Positions 13,478 through 21,408 of a stretch of 32,257 bases of DNA are shown one piece after another. Below the pieces are notes generated by a model. That model did not search any database, was not told where the DNA came from, and saw only the letters and a program-made list of their open reading frames with translations. Source of the DNA: Gemmatimonadota bacterium (GTDB lineage: Bacteria > Gemmatimonadota > Gemmatimonadetes > Palauibacterales > KS3-K002). How positions within the stretch are numbered: the first letter of the stretch is position 1; each line of letters begins with the position of its first letter. Location of the stretch: positions 1,312,991 to 1,345,247 of the forward strand of contig CP070823.1 of NCBI GenBank assembly GCA_020344375.1, in the 5' to 3' direction. The translations under genes were made by a program, and so were the position numbers.

Positions 13478-13485
13478 CGCTGCTC

Positions 13486-13516
13486 AGGGGTCGGCCGCGA
13501 TCAGCGGCCGGCCCCT
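13486..13516 (+). terminator. Strong hairpin downstream of glnA
   Basis: A 13-bp stem (AGGGGTCGGCCGC with GCGGCCGGCCCCT, one G-U pair) closes a 5-nt GATCA loop, 8 bp after the glnA stop and before the next start. It is followed by CTTAG rather than a long U-tract, as is common in GC-rich genomes. It very probably ends the glnA transcript. Confidence 0.75.
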
Positions 13517-13546
13517 CTTAGCTGCGATCGCAACGTTGCCGATGTG

Positions 13547-14176
13547 ATGGCCTTCCTCTCGCGGTTCCTCGAGTCGGCGCGCCGGTGGGCTGTGAGCCGC
13601 TCATGGCACTGGCGGGCCCTCGTACTGGCCTACCTGGTCTATGCCGCCTCACGCTCCCTGGCAGACGCTGACTACGTGAGCATGTTCTCCGGGATTACCC
13701 TCGTGTTTCACGAGATGGGGCACATCCTCTTCTCACCGTTCGGAGACGTGCTGATGATCGCCGGCGGGAGCATCACCCAGCTCGCTATTCCGATCGTCGT
13801 TGCCCTGTACCTGCTGCTGCGGCAAGGGGACTACTTCGGGTTCGCCGTAGGTGGCGCCTGGCTCGGGTTCAGCGCTCTGGACCTGGCCCGCTACATCGGT
13901 GACGCCCGGATCCTCGAGTTACCTCTCGTGAGCCTCGGGCCCGAGGCGGAGCACGACTGGTTCTACCTGCTGAGCCGCTTGGGTTGGTTGCGCTACGACA
14001 CGCAGATCGCCGGCCTCGTGCGGAGCTCCGGCACTGTGATCCTCTTCCTCTCCATCGCCTTCGGGGTCTGGCTCTGCTTCCTGATGGGGCGGGGCTCCGG
14101 GGCCCGGGACGACGAAGCTCGGGAAGACCCTGAGACCCGGAAGTTCAAAGACTGGCTGCGCGAGCGAGGGAGCTAG
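13547..14176 (+). CDS. Integral membrane protein with HEMGH motif (putative membrane metalloprotease-like)
   Basis: 209-aa protein with about four to five membrane segments (roughly 23-40, 48-70, 76-91, 98-115, 158-180) and a charged cytosolic tail. Residues 55-59 read HEMGH, an HExxH zinc motif inside a hydrophobic helix, as in M50-type intramembrane metalloproteases. A possible third ligand lies in SALDLARYIGD. It lacks the PDZ and NPxxxLDG features of RseP-type enzymes, so protease function is only suggested. The ATG at 13547 follows a GTG at 13544; neither has a convincing ribosome site. It lies downstream of the glnA terminator and so has its own transcript. Confidence 0.65.
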   Translation: MAFLSRFLESARRWAVSRSWHWRALVLAYLVYAASRSLADADYVSMFSGITLVFHEMGHILFSPFGDVLMIAGGSITQLAIPIVVALYLLLRQGDYFGFAVGGAWLGFSALDLARYIGDARILELPLVSLGPEAEHDWFYLLSRLGWLRYDTQIAGLVRSSGTVILFLSIAFGVWLCFLMGRGSGARDDEAREDPETRKFKDWLRERGS

Positions 14177-14249
14177 GGCAGCTGCCGTAGGACTTCGTGC
14201 TCATCCGGCCAGGAAGTGGCAGAAGGACGGAGTAAGGGGCCGGTGGCCC

Positions 14250-14278
14250 TTGACTAGGGTGAAGTCCGGGGGCATGAT
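14250..14278 (+). promoter_or_regulatory. Sigma-70-like promoter of the efflux operon
   Basis: A -35 box TTGACT (14250-14255, five of six consensus bases) and a -10 box CATGAT (14273-14278, four of six) are separated by exactly 17 bp. The -10 overlaps the first palindrome of the operator, and the start codon of the TetR gene lies 27 bp downstream, giving a short leader. Confidence 0.6.
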
Positions 14279-14307
14279 ACGAACGTATGAAGGAGGTCAT
14301 ACGTATG
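14277..14307 (+). promoter_or_regulatory. Palindromic TetR operator overlapping -10, RBS and start codon
   Basis: Two palindromes, ATACGAACGTAT (14277-14288) and the perfect CATACGTATG (14298-14307), flank the ribosome site. Read together, ACGTATGA (14283-14290) and TCATACGT (14297-14304) form an 8-bp inverted repeat whose 6-nt centre is exactly the Shine-Dalgarno AGGAGG (14291-14296). This is what an autoregulatory TetR operator would look like; in RNA it also makes a hairpin with the ribosome site in its loop. Protein binding is inference. Confidence 0.65.
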
Positions 14308-14925
14308 AATCAAACCGCCCCCACCACTGACGCCGCTCTCGTCCGCGCGGCCCGCGAGCTCTTCGCTGCCCACGGCTACGACGGCACCTCCGTCCGCGCC
14401 ATCACCGCCCGCGCTGGCGCCAACCTAGGCGCCATCACCTATCACTTCGGCTCAAAGCAGGCTCTCCACGACGCCGTCATCGCCAGCGTCATGGGCCCGG
14501 GGCGCGAGCGCATCGTCGAGGCGGCGGCGGGGCCGGGTACGCCCCTCGATCGCCTGGAAGTCGTGGTCCGGGCCTTCTTCAGTTACCTGGACGAAAACCC
14601 TGACGCTATCCCACTGATGATGGGCGTTATGCTGAGTTCGAGGCCGTTACCCGACGTCGTTGCGCGCACCATCGCAGCCAACGTCGATACCGTGTCTTCG
14701 CTGATCGGCGAGGGACAGCGGGACGGCTCGGTCCGCGCCGGCGACCCGAGCTTGCTGGCGCTCGGCATCGTCGCCCAGCCGCTCTTCCTGGCGCTGGCCC
14801 GGCGCGCCTTGGAGGAGGCGGTGGCGATCGACCAGACCGATCCCTTGACACGCGCTCAGCTGGTGGAGAGTGTCCTCAGCTTCGTGCGCGCTGGTCTCGC
14901 AGCACATCGGGAGAAATCAGAATGA
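14305..14925 (+). CDS. TetR/AcrR-family regulator of the efflux operon (CecR-like)
   Basis: 206-aa repressor. The N-terminal helix-turn-helix spans about residues 9-55 (LVRAARELFAAHGYDGTSVR.ITARAGANLGAITYHFGSKQAL), the canonical TetR pattern; the C-terminal ligand domain resembles CecR/YbiH, which controls ybhGFSR in E. coli. ATG 14305 is chosen because AGGAGG (14291-14296) sits 8 nt upstream; the ATG at 14287 precedes that site. It is the first gene of a seven- to eight-gene efflux operon and overlaps the TolC gene by 4 nt (ATGA). The operator overlapping its own promoter implies autorepression relieved by the exported compound (inference). Confidence 0.92.
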   Translation: MNQTAPTTDAALVRAARELFAAHGYDGTSVRAITARAGANLGAITYHFGSKQALHDAVIASVMGPGRERIVEAAAGPGTPLDRLEVVVRAFFSYLDENPDAIPLMMGVMLSSRPLPDVVARTIAANVDTVSSLIGEGQRDGSVRAGDPSLLALGIVAQPLFLALARRALEEAVAIDQTDPLTRAQLVESVLSFVRAGLAAHREKSE

Positions 14926-16301
14926 GACGCCCGGCTCACAGATCCGTCGTTCGCGCAGCCGTGCACGCCGGCCTGATTCTCTCAGGCGTGGCGACGTCGG
15001 CAGCTCCCCAGGAAACCGCCGAGCGCGATTCGCTGACTCTGGCTCAGGCCGTTGCCTTGGCCCAGGAGACCTATCCGAGCGTCGCAGTCGCCCGAGCGGG
15101 TGAGGACGCTGCGGCCGCCAGCTTGGGTCAGGCGCGGGCGGCGTGGTGGCCTCAGCTCAGCACGCAGGCCACGGCAGTAAGCTACGAGGAACCGATGCTC
15201 GTGGCGCCGATACACGGCTTCAGTCCCCAGCAGTTCGAGCGGATCGAACTCGAGAAAACACTCTTTCAGGGCAACGTTTCCCTGGGCTGGACCATCTTCG
15301 ACGGTGGCGCTCGTGTCAACAGGATTCGCGGTGCACGTGCCGGCGCCGCCGGAGCAGTCGCGGGCCGCACGGCTGCCGAGATGGCGCTCACGGCTCGCGT
15401 CGCTGGCGCCTACCTGCAGGCCCTCAGCGCCCGTGGCGTTCTCGATGCACAGGAGCGGCGGATCGAGGCTCTGAGTGCCGAGCGTCAACGCGTTGAACAG
15501 CTGCTGGGCGAGGGCCGGGCCGCGCGCGTGCAGCTGCTGCGCGTGGACGCCGCACTGGCTGAAGCGGAGGCACAGCGGGTCGCGACGCTCACCAGGCTCG
15601 ATCTCGCGGAGCGCGAGTTGGCGCGCTTGCTGGGTGTCAGCCCTGCCGAGGCGCGGGTGGACAACCTGCGTCCCGTACGGCTGGCCCTTGGCTCAGAACT
15701 GGACGAGCGCGCCGATCTGGTTGAACGGGCCAAGGCGGACAACCCCGAGCTGGAGCGTGCGCGCCGCGCGCTGGAGACGGCGGAGGCGAACCGCCGGGTA
15801 GCCAAGGCGGCCTGGATCCCCAGCCTCAACCTCACAGGCGGCCTGTTGGGTTTCAGCAGCGAAGCTGGGAATACTACCACGGAGTGGAACGTGGGCATCG
15901 CCCTCGCCTATCCGTTGTTCACCGGCGGTGCTCGTGCTAGCGCCGTCAGCCGTGCAACCGCCGAGGCGCGTGCGGCGCGTGAGGAGTCGCGCCTGGCCGT
16001 ACTGCGGACCGAAGAAGCTGTAGACCGCGCACTCAACGCTGCACTCGAGACTCAGGCCCTGGTCGACGCGCTGACTCGCGCCGTGCGCCACCAGACGGAG
16101 GTCGTGCGAATCGAGCAGCTCTCGCTGGAGGCTGGCGCGGGTACTCAGACGGACTACCTGCGGGCGGAGGCCGATGTGGCCCGCGCGCGTGCCCTGTTGG
16201 TCGAGGCGCGACATGCGGAGATCGCGGCCCGCGTGGAGCTTGCAAGAGTCGTGGGCGAGCTCACGCCTGGGTGGCTCGCGCAGAATCTGGAGAATCCATG
16301 A
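14922..16301 (+). CDS. TolC-family outer-membrane efflux channel
   Basis: 459-aa TolC-type protein: outer-membrane exit duct of a tripartite pump. A signal peptide (about residues 1-28) precedes SLTLAQAVALAQETYPSVAVARA, the standard first helix of the outer-membrane-efflux domain. Two internal repeats of long Ala/Arg/Glu-rich helices each contain a barrel strand region, with GWTIFDGGAR and ALAYPLFTGGAR as the paired beta-strand motifs. Overlap with the TetR gene stop (ATGA) and with the HlyD gene start shows strict translational coupling. Having tolC inside the operon differs from E. coli, where YbhGFSR would use the unlinked TolC. Confidence 0.93.
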   Translation: MRRPAHRSVVRAAVHAGLILSGVATSAAPQETAERDSLTLAQAVALAQETYPSVAVARAGEDAAAASLGQARAAWWPQLSTQATAVSYEEPMLVAPIHGFSPQQFERIELEKTLFQGNVSLGWTIFDGGARVNRIRGARAGAAGAVAGRTAAEMALTARVAGAYLQALSARGVLDAQERRIEALSAERQRVEQLLGEGRAARVQLLRVDAALAEAEAQRVATLTRLDLAERELARLLGVSPAEARVDNLRPVRLALGSELDERADLVERAKADNPELERARRALETAEANRRVAKAAWIPSLNLTGGLLGFSSEAGNTTTEWNVGIALAYPLFTGGARASAVSRATAEARAAREESRLAVLRTEEAVDRALNAALETQALVDALTRAVRHQTEVVRIEQLSLEAGAGTQTDYLRAEADVARARALLVEARHAEIAARVELARVVGELTPGWLAQNLENP

Positions 16302-17296
16302 TGAACAAGAGACTGCGGGTGGCGATCCCGATGGTGGTCCTGATCGCGGCCACCCTGATACTCTGGCTCTCCGTCTTCAGGTCGGGTTATAACGGCGCCA
16401 TCGTCGCTGCGGGCACCGTGGAAGCGACGGAAGCGGACCTGGGCTTCCAGCTGGCGGGACGCATCGAGCGTATCGCCGTCCGGGAGGGTGACCCGGTCGA
16501 GCAGGGTCAGGAGCTCGCCTGGCTCGATCGCGCTGAGCTTCAAGCGCGTCGCCGTGCCGCTCAAGCCCAGGCCGAGGCCGCTCAGGCGATGCTGGCCGAG
16601 CTAGAGCGCGGCTTCCGCTCCGAGGAGGTCGCTCAGGGGCGCGCTGCCGTGCGCGCAGCCCAGCAGCGGATGAACGATGCGCTTCGCGACGTCGAGCGTA
16701 GCCGCCGACTGTACGACGGCGGCGCGGTGAGCAGGGAACTCCTCGACAAGCACGAGACGGCCTACGAGCTGGCGAAGGCGGATTATGAGAGCGCGCTGGA
16801 GCAGCTCCAGATCCTGGAGACCGGGCCGCGCCAGGAACGCATCACGGCCCAGCGGGCTGCTCTGGAGCAGGCCGAGGCCAGCGTGGCACAGATCGACGCG
16901 GCTCTCGACTTCGCAGTGATCTGGGCGCCCTTCGGCGGTCTCATCACGGTGCGCCACCGGGAGCCGGGCGAGACAGTGCCGGCCGGCGCGCCGGTCCTGA
17001 CACTGATGAATCCGGACGATCGCTGGGTCCGCATCTACGTGCGCGAGGATGAGGTAGGCCGCGTCGGCCTCGGGCAGCCGGCGATGATCACTGGCGATGC
17101 CGATCCCGACCGCGAGTACGAGGGGCGCGTCGTCTTCATTGCCAGCCAGGCCGAGTTCACCCCTCGTAACGTGCAGACGACCGAGGAGCGCGTGAAGCTG
17201 GTCTACAGGGTGAAAGTCCAGGTCACTGGTGACCCCGGGTTCGAGCTCAAGCCCGGGCTCGCCGCCGACGTGCGGATCGTCGCGCAGGAGCGCTGA
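16298..17296 (+). CDS. HlyD/YbhG-type periplasmic adaptor protein
   Basis: 332-aa membrane-fusion protein linking the ABC transporter to the TolC channel. A single N-terminal anchor (about residues 8-27) is followed by the first lipoyl half (GTVEATEADLGFQLAGRIERIAV.EGD.V..GQ), a long coiled-coil hairpin of about 150 residues, the second lipoyl half (IWAPFGGLITVRHREPGETV) and a beta-barrel domain (VRIYVREDEVGRVGLGQPA). The order and length match YbhG. The start is ATG 16298, overlapping the TolC stop; ATG 16301 is equally possible since GGAG (16289-16292) serves both. Confidence 0.92.
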   Translation: MMNKRLRVAIPMVVLIAATLILWLSVFRSGYNGAIVAAGTVEATEADLGFQLAGRIERIAVREGDPVEQGQELAWLDRAELQARRRAAQAQAEAAQAMLAELERGFRSEEVAQGRAAVRAAQQRMNDALRDVERSRRLYDGGAVSRELLDKHETAYELAKADYESALEQLQILETGPRQERITAQRAALEQAEASVAQIDAALDFAVIWAPFGGLITVRHREPGETVPAGAPVLTLMNPDDRWVRIYVREDEVGRVGLGQPAMITGDADPDREYEGRVVFIASQAEFTPRNVQTTEERVKLVYRVKVQVTGDPGFELKPGLAADVRIVAQER

Positions 17297-18238
17297 GTGA
17301 AGATGGAACCCGCCGTCTCGCTCCGGGGGCTGACTCGCGACTTCGCTGATCTGCGCGCCGTGGACAACCTCAGCTTCGACGTGGCTCACGGCGAACTGTT
17401 CGGCATCATTGGCCCGGACGGCGCCGGCAAGACGACGACGCTTCGTATGCTCGCCGGTGTTCTGCGCCCCAGTTCGGGGGACGCGACGTTGGCGGGCGTG
17501 AGCGTTGCCCGGGACCCGGAGGGCGTGAAGCGCCATATCGCCTACATGTCTCAGCGCTTCGGCCTCTACACGGACCTCACCGTCGGAGAGAACTTGGAGT
17601 TCTACGCCGACCTTTATCAGGTGCCTCGGTCGGAGCGGCCGGCGCGGCTGGATCGGCTCTACGCCTTCTCCGGGCTCGGCCCCTTCCAGGACCGCCGCGC
17701 CGGCCAGCTTTCCGGCGGCATGAAGCAGAAGCTTGGCCTCTCCTGCGCGCTCATCCACGAGCCGGAGGTCATGCTCTTGGACGAGCCTACCTTCGGTGTG
17801 GATCCCATCTCGCGCCGCGACCTCTGGCTCATCGTCCACGAGATGGTGGCCCGGGGCGTCACGGTCATCGTTTCGACCGCTTACCTCGATGAAGCGGAAC
17901 GCTGCGATCGCGTGGTCGTGCTGCACCTGGGTCGCGCGGTCGCCCTCGACACGCCCGACGCGTTGCAACAGCGTCTCCGTGAGAAGGTCCTGGCCGTGCG
18001 AACCGACCGGCCCCGAGAGTCGCGGGACCGCCTGCGTGGACACCCGGCTGTTCGGCAGGCTGTGCTGTTCGGCGAGATCCTTCACGTAACGCTGCGTGAG
18101 GGCGTGCAGGACTGGCCGGCCGTTCGCGCCGATCTGCAGGCGGCGGGTGTCGAGGTGCTCGGCGAAGGGACCGTCGAAGCGTCGCTGGAGGATGTGTTCA
18201 TCGACCTGACCCGGCGACCGGAGGTGGAGGGTGAGTAA
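17297..18238 (+). CDS. ABC transporter ATP-binding protein 1 (YbhF N-half-like, degenerate H-loop)
   Basis: 313-aa ATPase subunit of the ABC-2 exporter. Walker A is GPDGAGKTT (39-47), the signature LSGGMKQ (138-144), and Walker B VMLLDEP with D162-E163. The H-loop position reads VSTAYLDEAE, with A195 where a catalytic His is usual. A C-terminal extension of about 80 residues resembles the YbhF/CcmA-type regulatory tail. The GTG start at 17297 directly follows the HlyD stop with GGAG at 6 nt. Its reading frame overlaps the second ATPase by 8 nt. In E. coli YbhF the two ATPase domains are fused; here they are separate genes. The altered H-loop suggests this half forms the non-hydrolysing site. 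Confidence 0.93.
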   Translation: MKMEPAVSLRGLTRDFADLRAVDNLSFDVAHGELFGIIGPDGAGKTTTLRMLAGVLRPSSGDATLAGVSVARDPEGVKRHIAYMSQRFGLYTDLTVGENLEFYADLYQVPRSERPARLDRLYAFSGLGPFQDRRAGQLSGGMKQKLGLSCALIHEPEVMLLDEPTFGVDPISRRDLWLIVHEMVARGVTVIVSTAYLDEAERCDRVVVLHLGRAVALDTPDALQQRLREKVLAVRTDRPRESRDRLRGHPAVRQAVLFGEILHVTLREGVQDWPAVRADLQAAGVEVLGEGTVEASLEDVFIDLTRRPEVEGE

Positions 18239-19169
18239 GGCAGTCGAGGTGTTCGAGCTCACCCGCAAGTTCGACGACTTCACCGCCGTCGATCGGGTGA
18301 GCTTTGCCGTGGAGGAGGGCGAGATCTTCGGATTTCTGGGGCCCAACGGAGCGGGGAAGACCACTACGATCAAGATGATGACCGGGCTGTTGCGCCCCAC
18401 CTCAGGATCGGCGCAGGTAGGAGGCTACGATGTCGTGGTGGAAGTGGAGCAGGTTAAGCTCAACATCGGTTACATGTCCCAGCTCTTCTCGCTCTACCCG
18501 GACCTCACCGTACTGGAGAACATCCAGCTCTTCGCCGGGCTCTACGGGGTGAGTGGCCGGCGCTTCGCCGAGCGCCGTGATTGGGTGCTTGAGATGGCAG
18601 GCCTGGGTGACTACAAGGATCGCCTCACCGGGCAGTTGTCGCTGGGCTTCAAGCAGCGTCTGGCCCTGGGCTGCGCCGTGCTGCACGAGCCCTCCATCCT
18701 CTTCCTCGACGAGCCCACTTCCGGGGTAGACCCGATCTCGCGGCGCAACTTCTGGGACCTGATCTACGGGTTCGCCGATGTGGGAACCACCGTCTTCGTG
18801 AGTACGCACTACATGGAGGAGGCGGAGTACTCCCATCGGCTGGCGGTCATGAATCGCGGGGCGATTGTCGCGCTGGACCGACCGTCCGCGCTGAAGGCCA
18901 AGATCCGTGAGCCCATCCTCGAGGTGATCAGCGAGGACCCGCCGCAGGCGGTGGAGGCGCTCCAGGGCGGCCCGGGCATCATCGAGGTGACGATGTTCGG
19001 CCGCGCGATCCACGTCATGGTCGAGGACCAGGCAGCAGGAGAGCGCCATATACTCGAGATCCTCGAGGCCGCCGGTCAACGAGCGGGCTCGATACAGCCC
19101 ATCGAGCCATCCCTCGAGGACGTGTTCGTCTCCTTCGTCAGACGCAGCGGTGGGACGGTGGCCGGATGA
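18231..19169 (+). CDS. ABC transporter ATP-binding protein 2 (YbhF C-half-like)
   Basis: 312-aa second ATPase. Walker A GPNGAGKTTT (38-47), Walker B ILFLDEP with D160-E161, and a normal H-loop STHYMEEAE (H193) are intact, but the signature reads LSLGFKQR (136-143) instead of LSGGMKQR. It therefore complements the first ATPase, which has a good signature but no H-loop His. The GTG start (18231) lies 8 nt inside the preceding gene. The stop overlaps the permease start as ATGA. A C-terminal tail of about 80 residues is shared with the paralogue (ending SLEDVF). Confidence 0.93.
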   Translation: MSKAVEVFELTRKFDDFTAVDRVSFAVEEGEIFGFLGPNGAGKTTTIKMMTGLLRPTSGSAQVGGYDVVVEVEQVKLNIGYMSQLFSLYPDLTVLENIQLFAGLYGVSGRRFAERRDWVLEMAGLGDYKDRLTGQLSLGFKQRLALGCAVLHEPSILFLDEPTSGVDPISRRNFWDLIYGFADVGTTVFVSTHYMEEAEYSHRLAVMNRGAIVALDRPSALKAKIREPILEVISEDPPQAVEALQGGPGIIEVTMFGRAIHVMVEDQAAGERHILEILEAAGQRAGSIQPIEPSLEDVFVSFVRRSGGTVAG

Positions 19170-20284
19170 TGAGCCTGGCGCGGCTTCTGGCCGTGAGCCG
19201 CAAGGAAGCCATTCAGCTTCGGCGCGACCCGCGAAGCCTGTTGCTGGCGTTCTTGTTGCCGCTCTTCCTGATCGTCTTCTTTGGCTACGCCATCACCTAC
19301 GATGTCAAGAACATCGAGATGGCGGTGCTTGACGAGAGCAATAGCGAGGAAAGCCGCGCGCTCGTCGAGTCATTCGTGAGCTCCGGGTACTTCCGAATCC
19401 ACGAGTATCCGGCCCGCTACCAGGATGTCCAGATGCTCCTCGACGCCGGGGTGGTTCGGCTAGTACTGGTCATCCCGCCCGACTTCAGCCGGGACCTGGG
19501 CGCCGGTCGCGGCGCGCCGGTCCAGATCCTCCTCGATGGCGCCGACGCCAACACGGCCACCATCGCCCGGAACTACGCCACAGCCATCGTCGCCCGTTAC
19601 TCGACGGAGGTCGTCCTCGGGGGGCGGGAGCTCCGGCTCCCTGTCGAGGCGGAGACCCGAGTCTGGTACAACGAGACGCTCGAGAGTCAGAACATGATCG
19701 TGCCCGGCCTGGTGGCGGTGATCATGTCGATCATCGCAGCGCTGCTCACTGCCCTCACCATCGCCCGCGAGTGGGAGCGCGGTACGATGGAGCAGCTCGC
19801 GGCAACGCCCGTGCACCGGTTCGAGGTAGTGCTGGGCAAGCTCTTGCCCTACGTCGTGATCGGCCTCTTCGATGTGTCACTCGCCGTCCTGGCCGGACTC
19901 TTCATCTTTCAGGTTCCGTTCCGCGGCAGCGTGCTCCTGCTCTCTGGGCTCACGCTCCTCTTCCTGGTGGGTGCCCTCAGCCTCGGAATGTTCATCTCGG
20001 CGGCCGCCAGGGCCCAGTTGTTGGCGACGCAGTTCGCCATCATCGCCACTTTTCTGCCGGCGATACTCCTCTCGGGCTTCATCTTCGCCATCGAGACGAT
20101 GCCGATCCCGATTCAGGCGATAACCTACATCGTGCCAGCACGCTATTACGTCACTGTCACCAAGGGGATCTTCCTCAAAGGGGTGGGCCCCGACGTCCTG
20201 TGGATCGAGGCGCTGGCGATGATCATCTTCGCGACGGCGGGGCTCTCGCTGGCGGCACGCGCCTTCCGTAAGGAGCTGGAGTGA
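19166..20284 (+). CDS. ABC-2 type permease 1 (YbhS/YbhR-like)
   Basis: 372-aa membrane subunit. One N-terminal helix (about 25-45, preceded by the RKEAIQLRRDPRSL amphipathic elbow) leads into a large extracytoplasmic domain of about 130 residues, followed by five helices from about residue 178 onward and a short basic tail. The elbow, the WERGTMEQLAATPV coupling helix and the RYYVTVTKGIFLKG segment are hallmark motifs of YhhJ/YbhS/YbhR permeases. It is expected to form a heterodimer with the next gene product, energised by the two ATPases, and to dock on HlyD. ATG 19166 overlaps the previous stop by 4 nt. Confidence 0.93.
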   Translation: MMSLARLLAVSRKEAIQLRRDPRSLLLAFLLPLFLIVFFGYAITYDVKNIEMAVLDESNSEESRALVESFVSSGYFRIHEYPARYQDVQMLLDAGVVRLVLVIPPDFSRDLGAGRGAPVQILLDGADANTATIARNYATAIVARYSTEVVLGGRELRLPVEAETRVWYNETLESQNMIVPGLVAVIMSIIAALLTALTIAREWERGTMEQLAATPVHRFEVVLGKLLPYVVIGLFDVSLAVLAGLFIFQVPFRGSVLLLSGLTLLFLVGALSLGMFISAAARAQLLATQFAIIATFLPAILLSGFIFAIETMPIPIQAITYIVPARYYVTVTKGIFLKGVGPDVLWIEALAMIIFATAGLSLAARAFRKELE

Positions 20285-21408
20285 TGAGCGTCTCCCCGCT
20301 GCGCGTCCGCGAGATGCTCAAGAAAGAGCTGCGGCAGATCTTCCGCGATCCCCGCCTGAAGCGGGTCATCTTCATCCCGCCGCTCATCCAGCTCATCGCC
20401 TTCGGCTACGCGGTCAACACGGACATCAAGAACACCGCCACCTTCGTTGTGGACCATGACGGGAGCCGGGACTCCCGGGAGCTGATCGACGCTTTCACGT
20501 CCACCGGCTACTTCCGCGTCGTCGCCCGCTCCCAGCGCGCCGCCGACCTGGTGAACGCGCTGGACGGCGGCGACGCAGCCGTCGGCATCGAGATTCCCGT
20601 GGACTTCGCCCGTACGCTGCCGACCCGGGACGGCGCCCGCATCCAGGTGATACTCGATGGAACGAGCTCCAACTCTGCCACCGTGGCTCAGGGCTACACT
20701 AGCCTGATCGCGCAGCGCTACGCTTTGGAGCGTGCCGCGGCACAGGGCAGCCTGCCCAGCGGCGGTGTCGACCTCCGCATGCGCGCTTGGTACAATCCCG
20801 AGCTGAAGAGCCGCGTCTATAACGTCCCGGCTGTCATCGGCCTGCTGGTTCTGCTCCTGTCGCTGCTGCTCACCGCCCTCGCCGTCGTCCGCGAGCGCGA
20901 GATGGGGACCCTCGACCAGCTCGCCGTGAGCCCGCTATCCGCATCGGAGCTCATGCTTGGGAAGACGCTGCCGGTGGTGCTTATCGCGCTCATGGATCTC
21001 TGCCTCATCACCGCCGTGGCCATCCTCTGGTTCGGGATCCCTATGCGCGGCTCGTTTCTGGTCCTCTTGCTGGCATCGCTCCTCTATATCACGGCCGGGA
21101 TCTCCGTCGGGCTTCTCATCTCCACGCTCTCCCGGACACAGCAGGAGGCTATCATGACGATGTTCCTCTTCCTGCTGCCGGCCATCATCCTCTCCGGCTT
21201 CTTCTATCCCATCAGCAGCATGCCCCGGTTCTTCCAGTGGCTCACGCTGTTCAATCCTGTGCGACATTTCCTGGAGATCGTGCGCTCGGTCTTCCTGAAG
21301 GGCGGTGGCCTGGACATCCTCTGGCCGCAGTTCCTGGCGCTCGTCGTGATGTCGGCGGCTGTTCTCCGCCTCGCCGTGTTCAGATTCCGCCGCACCATCG
21401 CGACCTGA
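20284..21408 (+). CDS. ABC-2 type permease 2 (YbhR-like)
   Basis: 374-aa paralogue of permease 1 with the same plan: elbow KKELRQIFRDPRLKR, first helix ending GYAVNTDIKN, extracytoplasmic domain to about residue 175, five further helices, the coupling segment REMGTLDQLAVSPL and RHFLEIVRSVFLKGGG near the end. The two permeases are diverged, which fits a heterodimer. ATG 20284 shares one base with the preceding stop (TGATG) and has GGAG 8 nt upstream; GTG 20281 is an alternative. Its stop is 5 bp before the DUF488 gene. Confidence 0.92.
   Translation: MSVSPLRVREMLKKELRQIFRDPRLKRVIFIPPLIQLIAFGYAVNTDIKNTATFVVDHDGSRDSRELIDAFTSTGYFRVVARSQRAADLVNALDGGDAAVGIEIPVDFARTLPTRDGARIQVILDGTSSNSATVAQGYTSLIAQRYALERAAAQGSLPSGGVDLRMRAWYNPELKSRVYNVPAVIGLLVLLLSLLLTALAVVREREMGTLDQLAVSPLSASELMLGKTLPVVLIALMDLCLITAVAILWFGIPMRGSFLVLLLASLLYITAGISVGLLISTLSRTQQEAIMTMFLFLLPAIILSGFFYPISSMPRFFQWLTLFNPVRHFLEIVRSVFLKGGGLDILWPQFLALVVMSAAVLRLAVFRFRRTIAT

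Follow-up and report, generated by a model that had tools for sequence, protein, structure and literature searches.

The sequence in front of the tetR gene studied here raises a question: do the palindromes that overlap its promoter and ribosome-binding site form an operator for the TetR protein, a hairpin in the mRNA, or both? The gene lies in the window, by which we mean the whole stretch of 32,257 nucleotides analyzed, taken from a 3.04-Mb, single-contig genome whose nearest named relatives are Gemmatimonadota. tetR (+ strand, from 14287 or 14305 to 14925) encodes a TetR-family repressor (Pfam TetR_N, 1.2e-15; TetR_C_29, 1.5e-6) whose helix-turn-helix domain (PF00440, 1.2e-15) exceeds the Pfam family cut-off. 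It heads an apparent operon that continues on the + strand with predicted genes for a TolC-like outer membrane efflux protein (14922–16301; Pfam OEP, 2.5e-52), an HlyD/YbhG-like adaptor (16307–17296; HlyD_3), two ABC ATPases (17297–18238 and 18231–19169, together 17297–19169; ABC_tran), and two ABC-2 permeases (19166–20284 and 20281–21408, together 19166–21408; ABC2_membrane_3). The adaptor scores 236 bits against NCBIfam PRK03598, under the cut-off of 393. Between glnA and tetR lies a 210-amino acid ORF (13544–14176) without a Pfam match. An Rfam scan of the window returned zero matches at gathering thresholds, and a terminator scan of 13480–15000 found zero terminators.

The sole promoter-like match in 13480–15000, where 0.1 would be expected, is TTGACT-17-CATGAT, followed by ACGAACGTATGAAGGAGGTCATACGTATGAATC before tetR. 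In the promoter scan, its −35 hexamer TTGACT (14250–14255, + strand) and −10 hexamer CATGAT (14273–14278, + strand) are spaced by 17 bp and match 9 of 12 consensus bases. The palindromes listed in a preliminary description of this DNA are all real. An inverted repeat with exact 8-bp arms, ACGTATGA (14283–14290) and TCATACGT (14297–14304), has the Shine-Dalgarno (SD) sequence AGGAGG (14291–14296, + strand) at its center. Two further palindromes flank it, ATACGAACGTAT at 14277–14288, which touches the −10 CATGAT, and TCATACGTATGA at 14297–14308, which contains the ATG at 14305–14307 (+ strand), 8 nt after AGGAGG. When the genome was searched for such a repeat with 4–8 nt between the arms, the SD-centered one proved to be unique. 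The same description had overlooked a second ATG, at 14287–14289 (+ strand), from which translation reads MKEVIRM...; the spacing in the window leaves both ATGs in frame, six codons apart.

Comparison with relatives revealed that what is conserved is not the palindrome centered on AGGAGG but the one that overlaps the −10, TCATAC-N4-GTATGA (14275–14290 in the window). We searched 119 relatives, then 394 genomes of the class, plus named genomes. A profile search of the class gave 86 hits with E values up to 1e-30; two (G001 and G151) were excluded since their genes are cut by the contig start, the nine weakest were kept apart, and upstream DNA was analyzed for the remaining 75. At a threshold of at least 10 of 12 arm bases within 400 bp upstream, the site was found in front of 69 of these 75 close orthologs, with perfect arms in 51 of the 75; the sequences are related, so these counts are not independent events. 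In the named genomes, a set that overlaps the class set, the site occurred at 70 of 80 loci, compared with 2 of 383 control windows taken at these loci. Allowing one mismatch, the pattern was present in 71 of the 394 genomes, mostly as one copy each, with about 2 for the reversed control. When the orthologs were aligned on the site, all 16 columns carried 1.0 to 2.0 bits of information, and the flanks dropped towards zero save for a few adjoining bases and a TTGAC-like −35. The latter (at least 4 of 5 bases) stood at −27 to −24 in 39 of 68 orthologs; controls averaged 1.8. In the window, operator A (TGATAC-GAAC-GTATGA, 11 of 12 arm bases) is the predicted conserved TetR site; it lies 25 bp from the −35 TTGACT, the same distance as class-wide, and its left half overlaps the −10. 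The conserved palindrome overlies tetR's own promoter in 69 of 75 orthologs, with the −35 at a fixed distance. These data lend good support to the proposal, made in the preliminary description, that a TetR operator is present in the DNA, and place it on the −10 palindrome instead of the SD-centered repeat. Three individual loci, titled Verrucomicrobia, Lentisphaerae, and Burkholderiales (L130, L133, and L135), also had the same site with the same start position.

The site was found in front of none of the nine weaker paralogs under the same threshold and within the same 400 bp. Six of the 75 orthologs lack it at 10 of 12 or better; five of these have degenerate look-alikes by eye, and the sixth, G111, has a perfect site elsewhere. 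In that genome, an ABC/FtsX-permease/HlyD/OEP operon ends with tetR (L257, 6436–7035), and the site (574–589) marks the operon head, at a distance of 5.9 kb; the gene has moved to the operon end and the operator has stayed where it was. Because the site keeps to the operon head with tetR at the far end, its association with TetR is more than positional. The DNA-binding part of the window TetR aligns closely to 2fbq, which we take to be PsrA.

The right half-site includes an ATG, and an in-frame tetR start lies within the site in 58 of 69 orthologs. The codon at the half-site ATG position is in the tetR frame in 57 of the 69, compared with 7 and 5 for the other two frames; 11 have no in-frame start within the site. 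An SD ahead of a later in-frame start was found in only 5 of the 69, the window among them. Since the start codon mostly sits in the right half-site and SDs are few, the usual tetR mRNA in these relatives is probably leaderless. As judged from the −35 and −10 distances, transcription should begin at the half-site ATG or a few bases from it, because the −10 sits on the left half of the site; the bases at the −10 position are TATCAT in most relatives and CATGAT in the window. The class-wide form of the element would thus be an operator covering the −10, the start point, and the start codon of a repressor gene whose mRNA is probably leaderless. The window's ATG at 14287, within operator A, occupies this usual place and is a possible leaderless start.

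The window departs from the common form by a predicted weaker second site, operator B (TCATAC-GTAT-GAATCA, 14297–14312, 10 of 12 arm bases), 22 bp from A. The SD-centered repeat (14283–14304) consists of the two inner half-sites, the right one of A and the left one of B, which face each other, and the 6-bp gap between the two operators is exactly AGGAGG, as it also is in one relative. We had first considered an 18-bp register for the second site, owing to the direct repeat of ACGTATGAA at 18 bp in the window and to 18-bp pairs in other lineages. That placement (14293–14308) matches 7 of 12 arm bases by hand count versus 10 of 12 at 22 bp, and the 22-bp register is preferred for this reason.

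Whether B is a functional site can be argued both ways. Operator A alone might be functional, with the second half-palindrome and the SD-centered symmetry being side effects of a local duplication from which the SD and a second start codon came. The 18-bp direct repeat of ACGTATGAA fits such a duplication, and B is absent in most relatives, which have A without it. Likewise, G002, a member of the genus that includes G007, kept A and AGGAGG and lost B; its ATG within A is out of frame with tetR, so that only the SD-led ATG can serve as the start there. On the other hand, B-like sites recur in several lineages and at several distances: at 22 bp in the window (G000) and three relatives (G007, G004, and G005), at 18 bp in G064, G110, G379, and G285, and at 21 bp in G260. 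In G005, B is perfect and the SD is absent, and the symmetry survives two double changes, although the latter is a weak argument. We therefore hold a functional A with an incidental B to be possible, if somewhat unlikely. Judged by G002 versus G005, the SD and the second site are separable.

The explanation that we favor, and regard as likely, is an autoregulatory operator of the TetR repressor that leads the ABC efflux operon, with A and B in tandem and an SD derived from their linker at an ancestrally leaderless gene. The analysis shows that the operator is conserved and establishes where it lies, its frame, and its linkage; binding, repression, transcription start, the choice of AUG, and induction are inferred. 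A TetR dimer on operator A would keep RNA polymerase out, its site spanning the −10, the probable start of transcription, and the first ATG. A second dimer could occupy the weaker B, about two helical turns downstream, side by side with the first; B probably strengthens autorepression at A. An inducer that frees TetR would open the whole operon. In most relatives, A would act alone, and the ATG within it would begin an essentially leaderless mRNA. The window's family would have gained the second site, and in some of its members the 6-bp linker would have become an SD, yielding an mRNA with two in-frame starts, the old near-5′-terminal AUG (14287) and the SD-led AUG (14305). The nested look of the region would follow from operator, promoter, SD, and start codons sharing the same 40 bp.

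A more elaborate proposal is that this 40-bp element is read in four ways, as −10, as tandem TetR operator, as leaderless AUG in a half-site, and as SD-led AUG, with TetR occupancy or small shifts of the transcription start choosing between leaderless and SD-led translation of the repressor. We consider it unlikely that all four readings are in use. If they were, the inner dyad would be a hairpin only in a longer transcript, and, class-wide, the TetR recognition sequence itself would spell the start of tetR.

The preliminary description had gone further, proposing that the SD-centered repeat is a dual element that also folds in the RNA, displays the ribosome site in its loop, and brings translation under control. 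Our data make this very unlikely. The isolated 22 nt do fold at −8.1 kcal/mol (z −5.4); however, a 60-nt RNA beginning at 14285 gains no stability over its shuffles (z +1.0), and the stem disappears if the RNA begins at 14287, a start that the orthologs make plausible. Such a hairpin, presenting the SD in the loop, is not conserved among the 75 orthologs: the repeat is present in only five, the window (G000), G007, G004, G005, and G060, with the respective centers AGGAGG, AGGAGG, AGGGAG, ATGAAG, and ATGAGA, so that the loop carries AGGAGG or AGGGAG in three and no SD in two. Conversely, the SD is kept without the repeat in G002. The five taxa that bear the repeat retain pairing at all 8 positions, with changes on both sides in two cases and on one side in none. 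We discarded this covariation as proof of a hairpin, as it comes from five taxa obtained through a filter requiring pairing, amounts to two paired changes, and is equaled by 29 of 500 shuffles; the double changes also agree with two half-sites tracking one protein. A class-wide search for the SD-centered repeat with three mismatches matched 283 of 394 genomes, the control often being comparable, and was not used for counts. Orthologs without the inverted repeat had been named in advance as the finding that would speak against the element; they are what we observe for the SD-centered repeat, and not for the operator as redefined here.

That the palindromes arose by chance and regulate nothing is hardly credible given the class-wide conservation with matched controls, the ortholog set already contradicting chance for operator A, even though 144 random nt of the same composition contain a perfect 8-bp inverted repeat (spacer of 0–12 nt) with a probability of 0.04. 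By itself, such a repeat is only moderately unlikely; a perfect one centered on AGGAGG appeared in 0 of 60 random windows. As we read these comparisons, the strong evidence for the element is its conservation, rather than the chance count.

Several known systems resemble parts of the preferred arrangement, a self-repressing tandem operator. The homodimer of PsrA, a TetR-family regulator of Pseudomonas, binds TTCAAAC-N4-GTTTGAA, according to the available part of PMC13104628. As described there, the PsrA operator is likewise a palindrome with a 4-bp center, differing by one base per arm, and PsrA autorepression acts near the start codon, as we predict here; unlike the window TetR, which heads an efflux operon, PsrA has fatty acid genes and rpoS under its control (PMC13104628). 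By the alignment to 2fbq, the DNA-binding domains are similar. Against the PsrA family model NF053516, the window protein scored 56.7 bits, over the DNA-binding part only, versus a cut-off of 300. The PsrA arms CAAAC/GTTTG are not those of our consensus, CATAC/GTATG, and the length of the center agrees.

The acuR-acuI-dddL operon of Rhodobacter sphaeroides is led by a TetR-family gene, and its leaderless mRNA has been mapped to the AUG, as stated in the available sections of PMC3017554. It has a self-repressing first gene and an operator over the promoter, features that are predicted from sequence for our locus; a leaderless mRNA is probable for most of the relatives, whereas the window is one of the 5 of 69 with an SD before a later in-frame start. 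Whereas the acuR transcript was mapped, the start proposed here derives from the distance of the −35 and −10 to the ATG. The acuR operator, TAATAGAC-n6-GTCTATTA, and the genes it regulates are different, and those sections of PMC3017554 describe no SD in the operator gap. In E. coli, the CecR (YbiH)-YbhGFSR system also has a TetR-family gene at the head of an operon for an adaptor and an ABC-2 exporter, although the operon in the window includes a tolC-like gene and has its ATPase as two genes (comparison based on the available text of PMC7190983). The window repressor scored 29.3 bits against the CecR family model NF008587, far under its cut-off of 365. Finally, E. coli mRNAs with a 5′-terminal AUG upstream of an SD exist, as reported in the accessible part of PMC4965119. 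Like these, the window mRNA would have a 5′-proximal AUG with an SD and another start after it, its 5′ end being a prediction; unlike what that part of the source describes, the AUGs in the window are in frame, six codons apart, and within a putative repressor operator (PMC4965119). The AGGAGG-type SD agrees with the profile given for Gemmatimonadetes in the portion of PMC10783764 available to us.

A self-repressed efflux pump is an ordinary kind of regulation. What would be new is a start codon embedded in the operator, conserved across a class, together with an SD change within it; our literature searches returned no description of this operator motif or arrangement, and none for Gemmatimonadota. 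The analysis provides a precise predicted operator, nearly unique per genome, for a TetR subfamily spread through Gemmatimonadota, and the position of this operator predicts leaderless repressor mRNAs in that phylum. In the window's family, a probably leaderless start appears to have given way to an SD-led one within a conserved operator, so that one can test how start sites evolve while regulation constrains them.

Some further sites were noted during the searches. The operator pairs at L182, L191, L203, L215, and L201 (18 bp in four genomes and 21 bp in one) lie mostly between the −35 and the start codon. Operator-like sites with no tetR relative in the examined stretch occur in G143, G202, G260 (C135), G262, G286, and G314 (C61), and also in G156, where the site is near a contig end; operator matches at L053, L054, L259, L260, and L262 have no tetR relative nearby. 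Eight of the nine weak paralogs (L247–L254) carry another palindrome, approximately TTTAATTAATCGTTTAATTAA, just 5′ of the start codon, which by eye would make up another operator family, distinct from the first, within the class.
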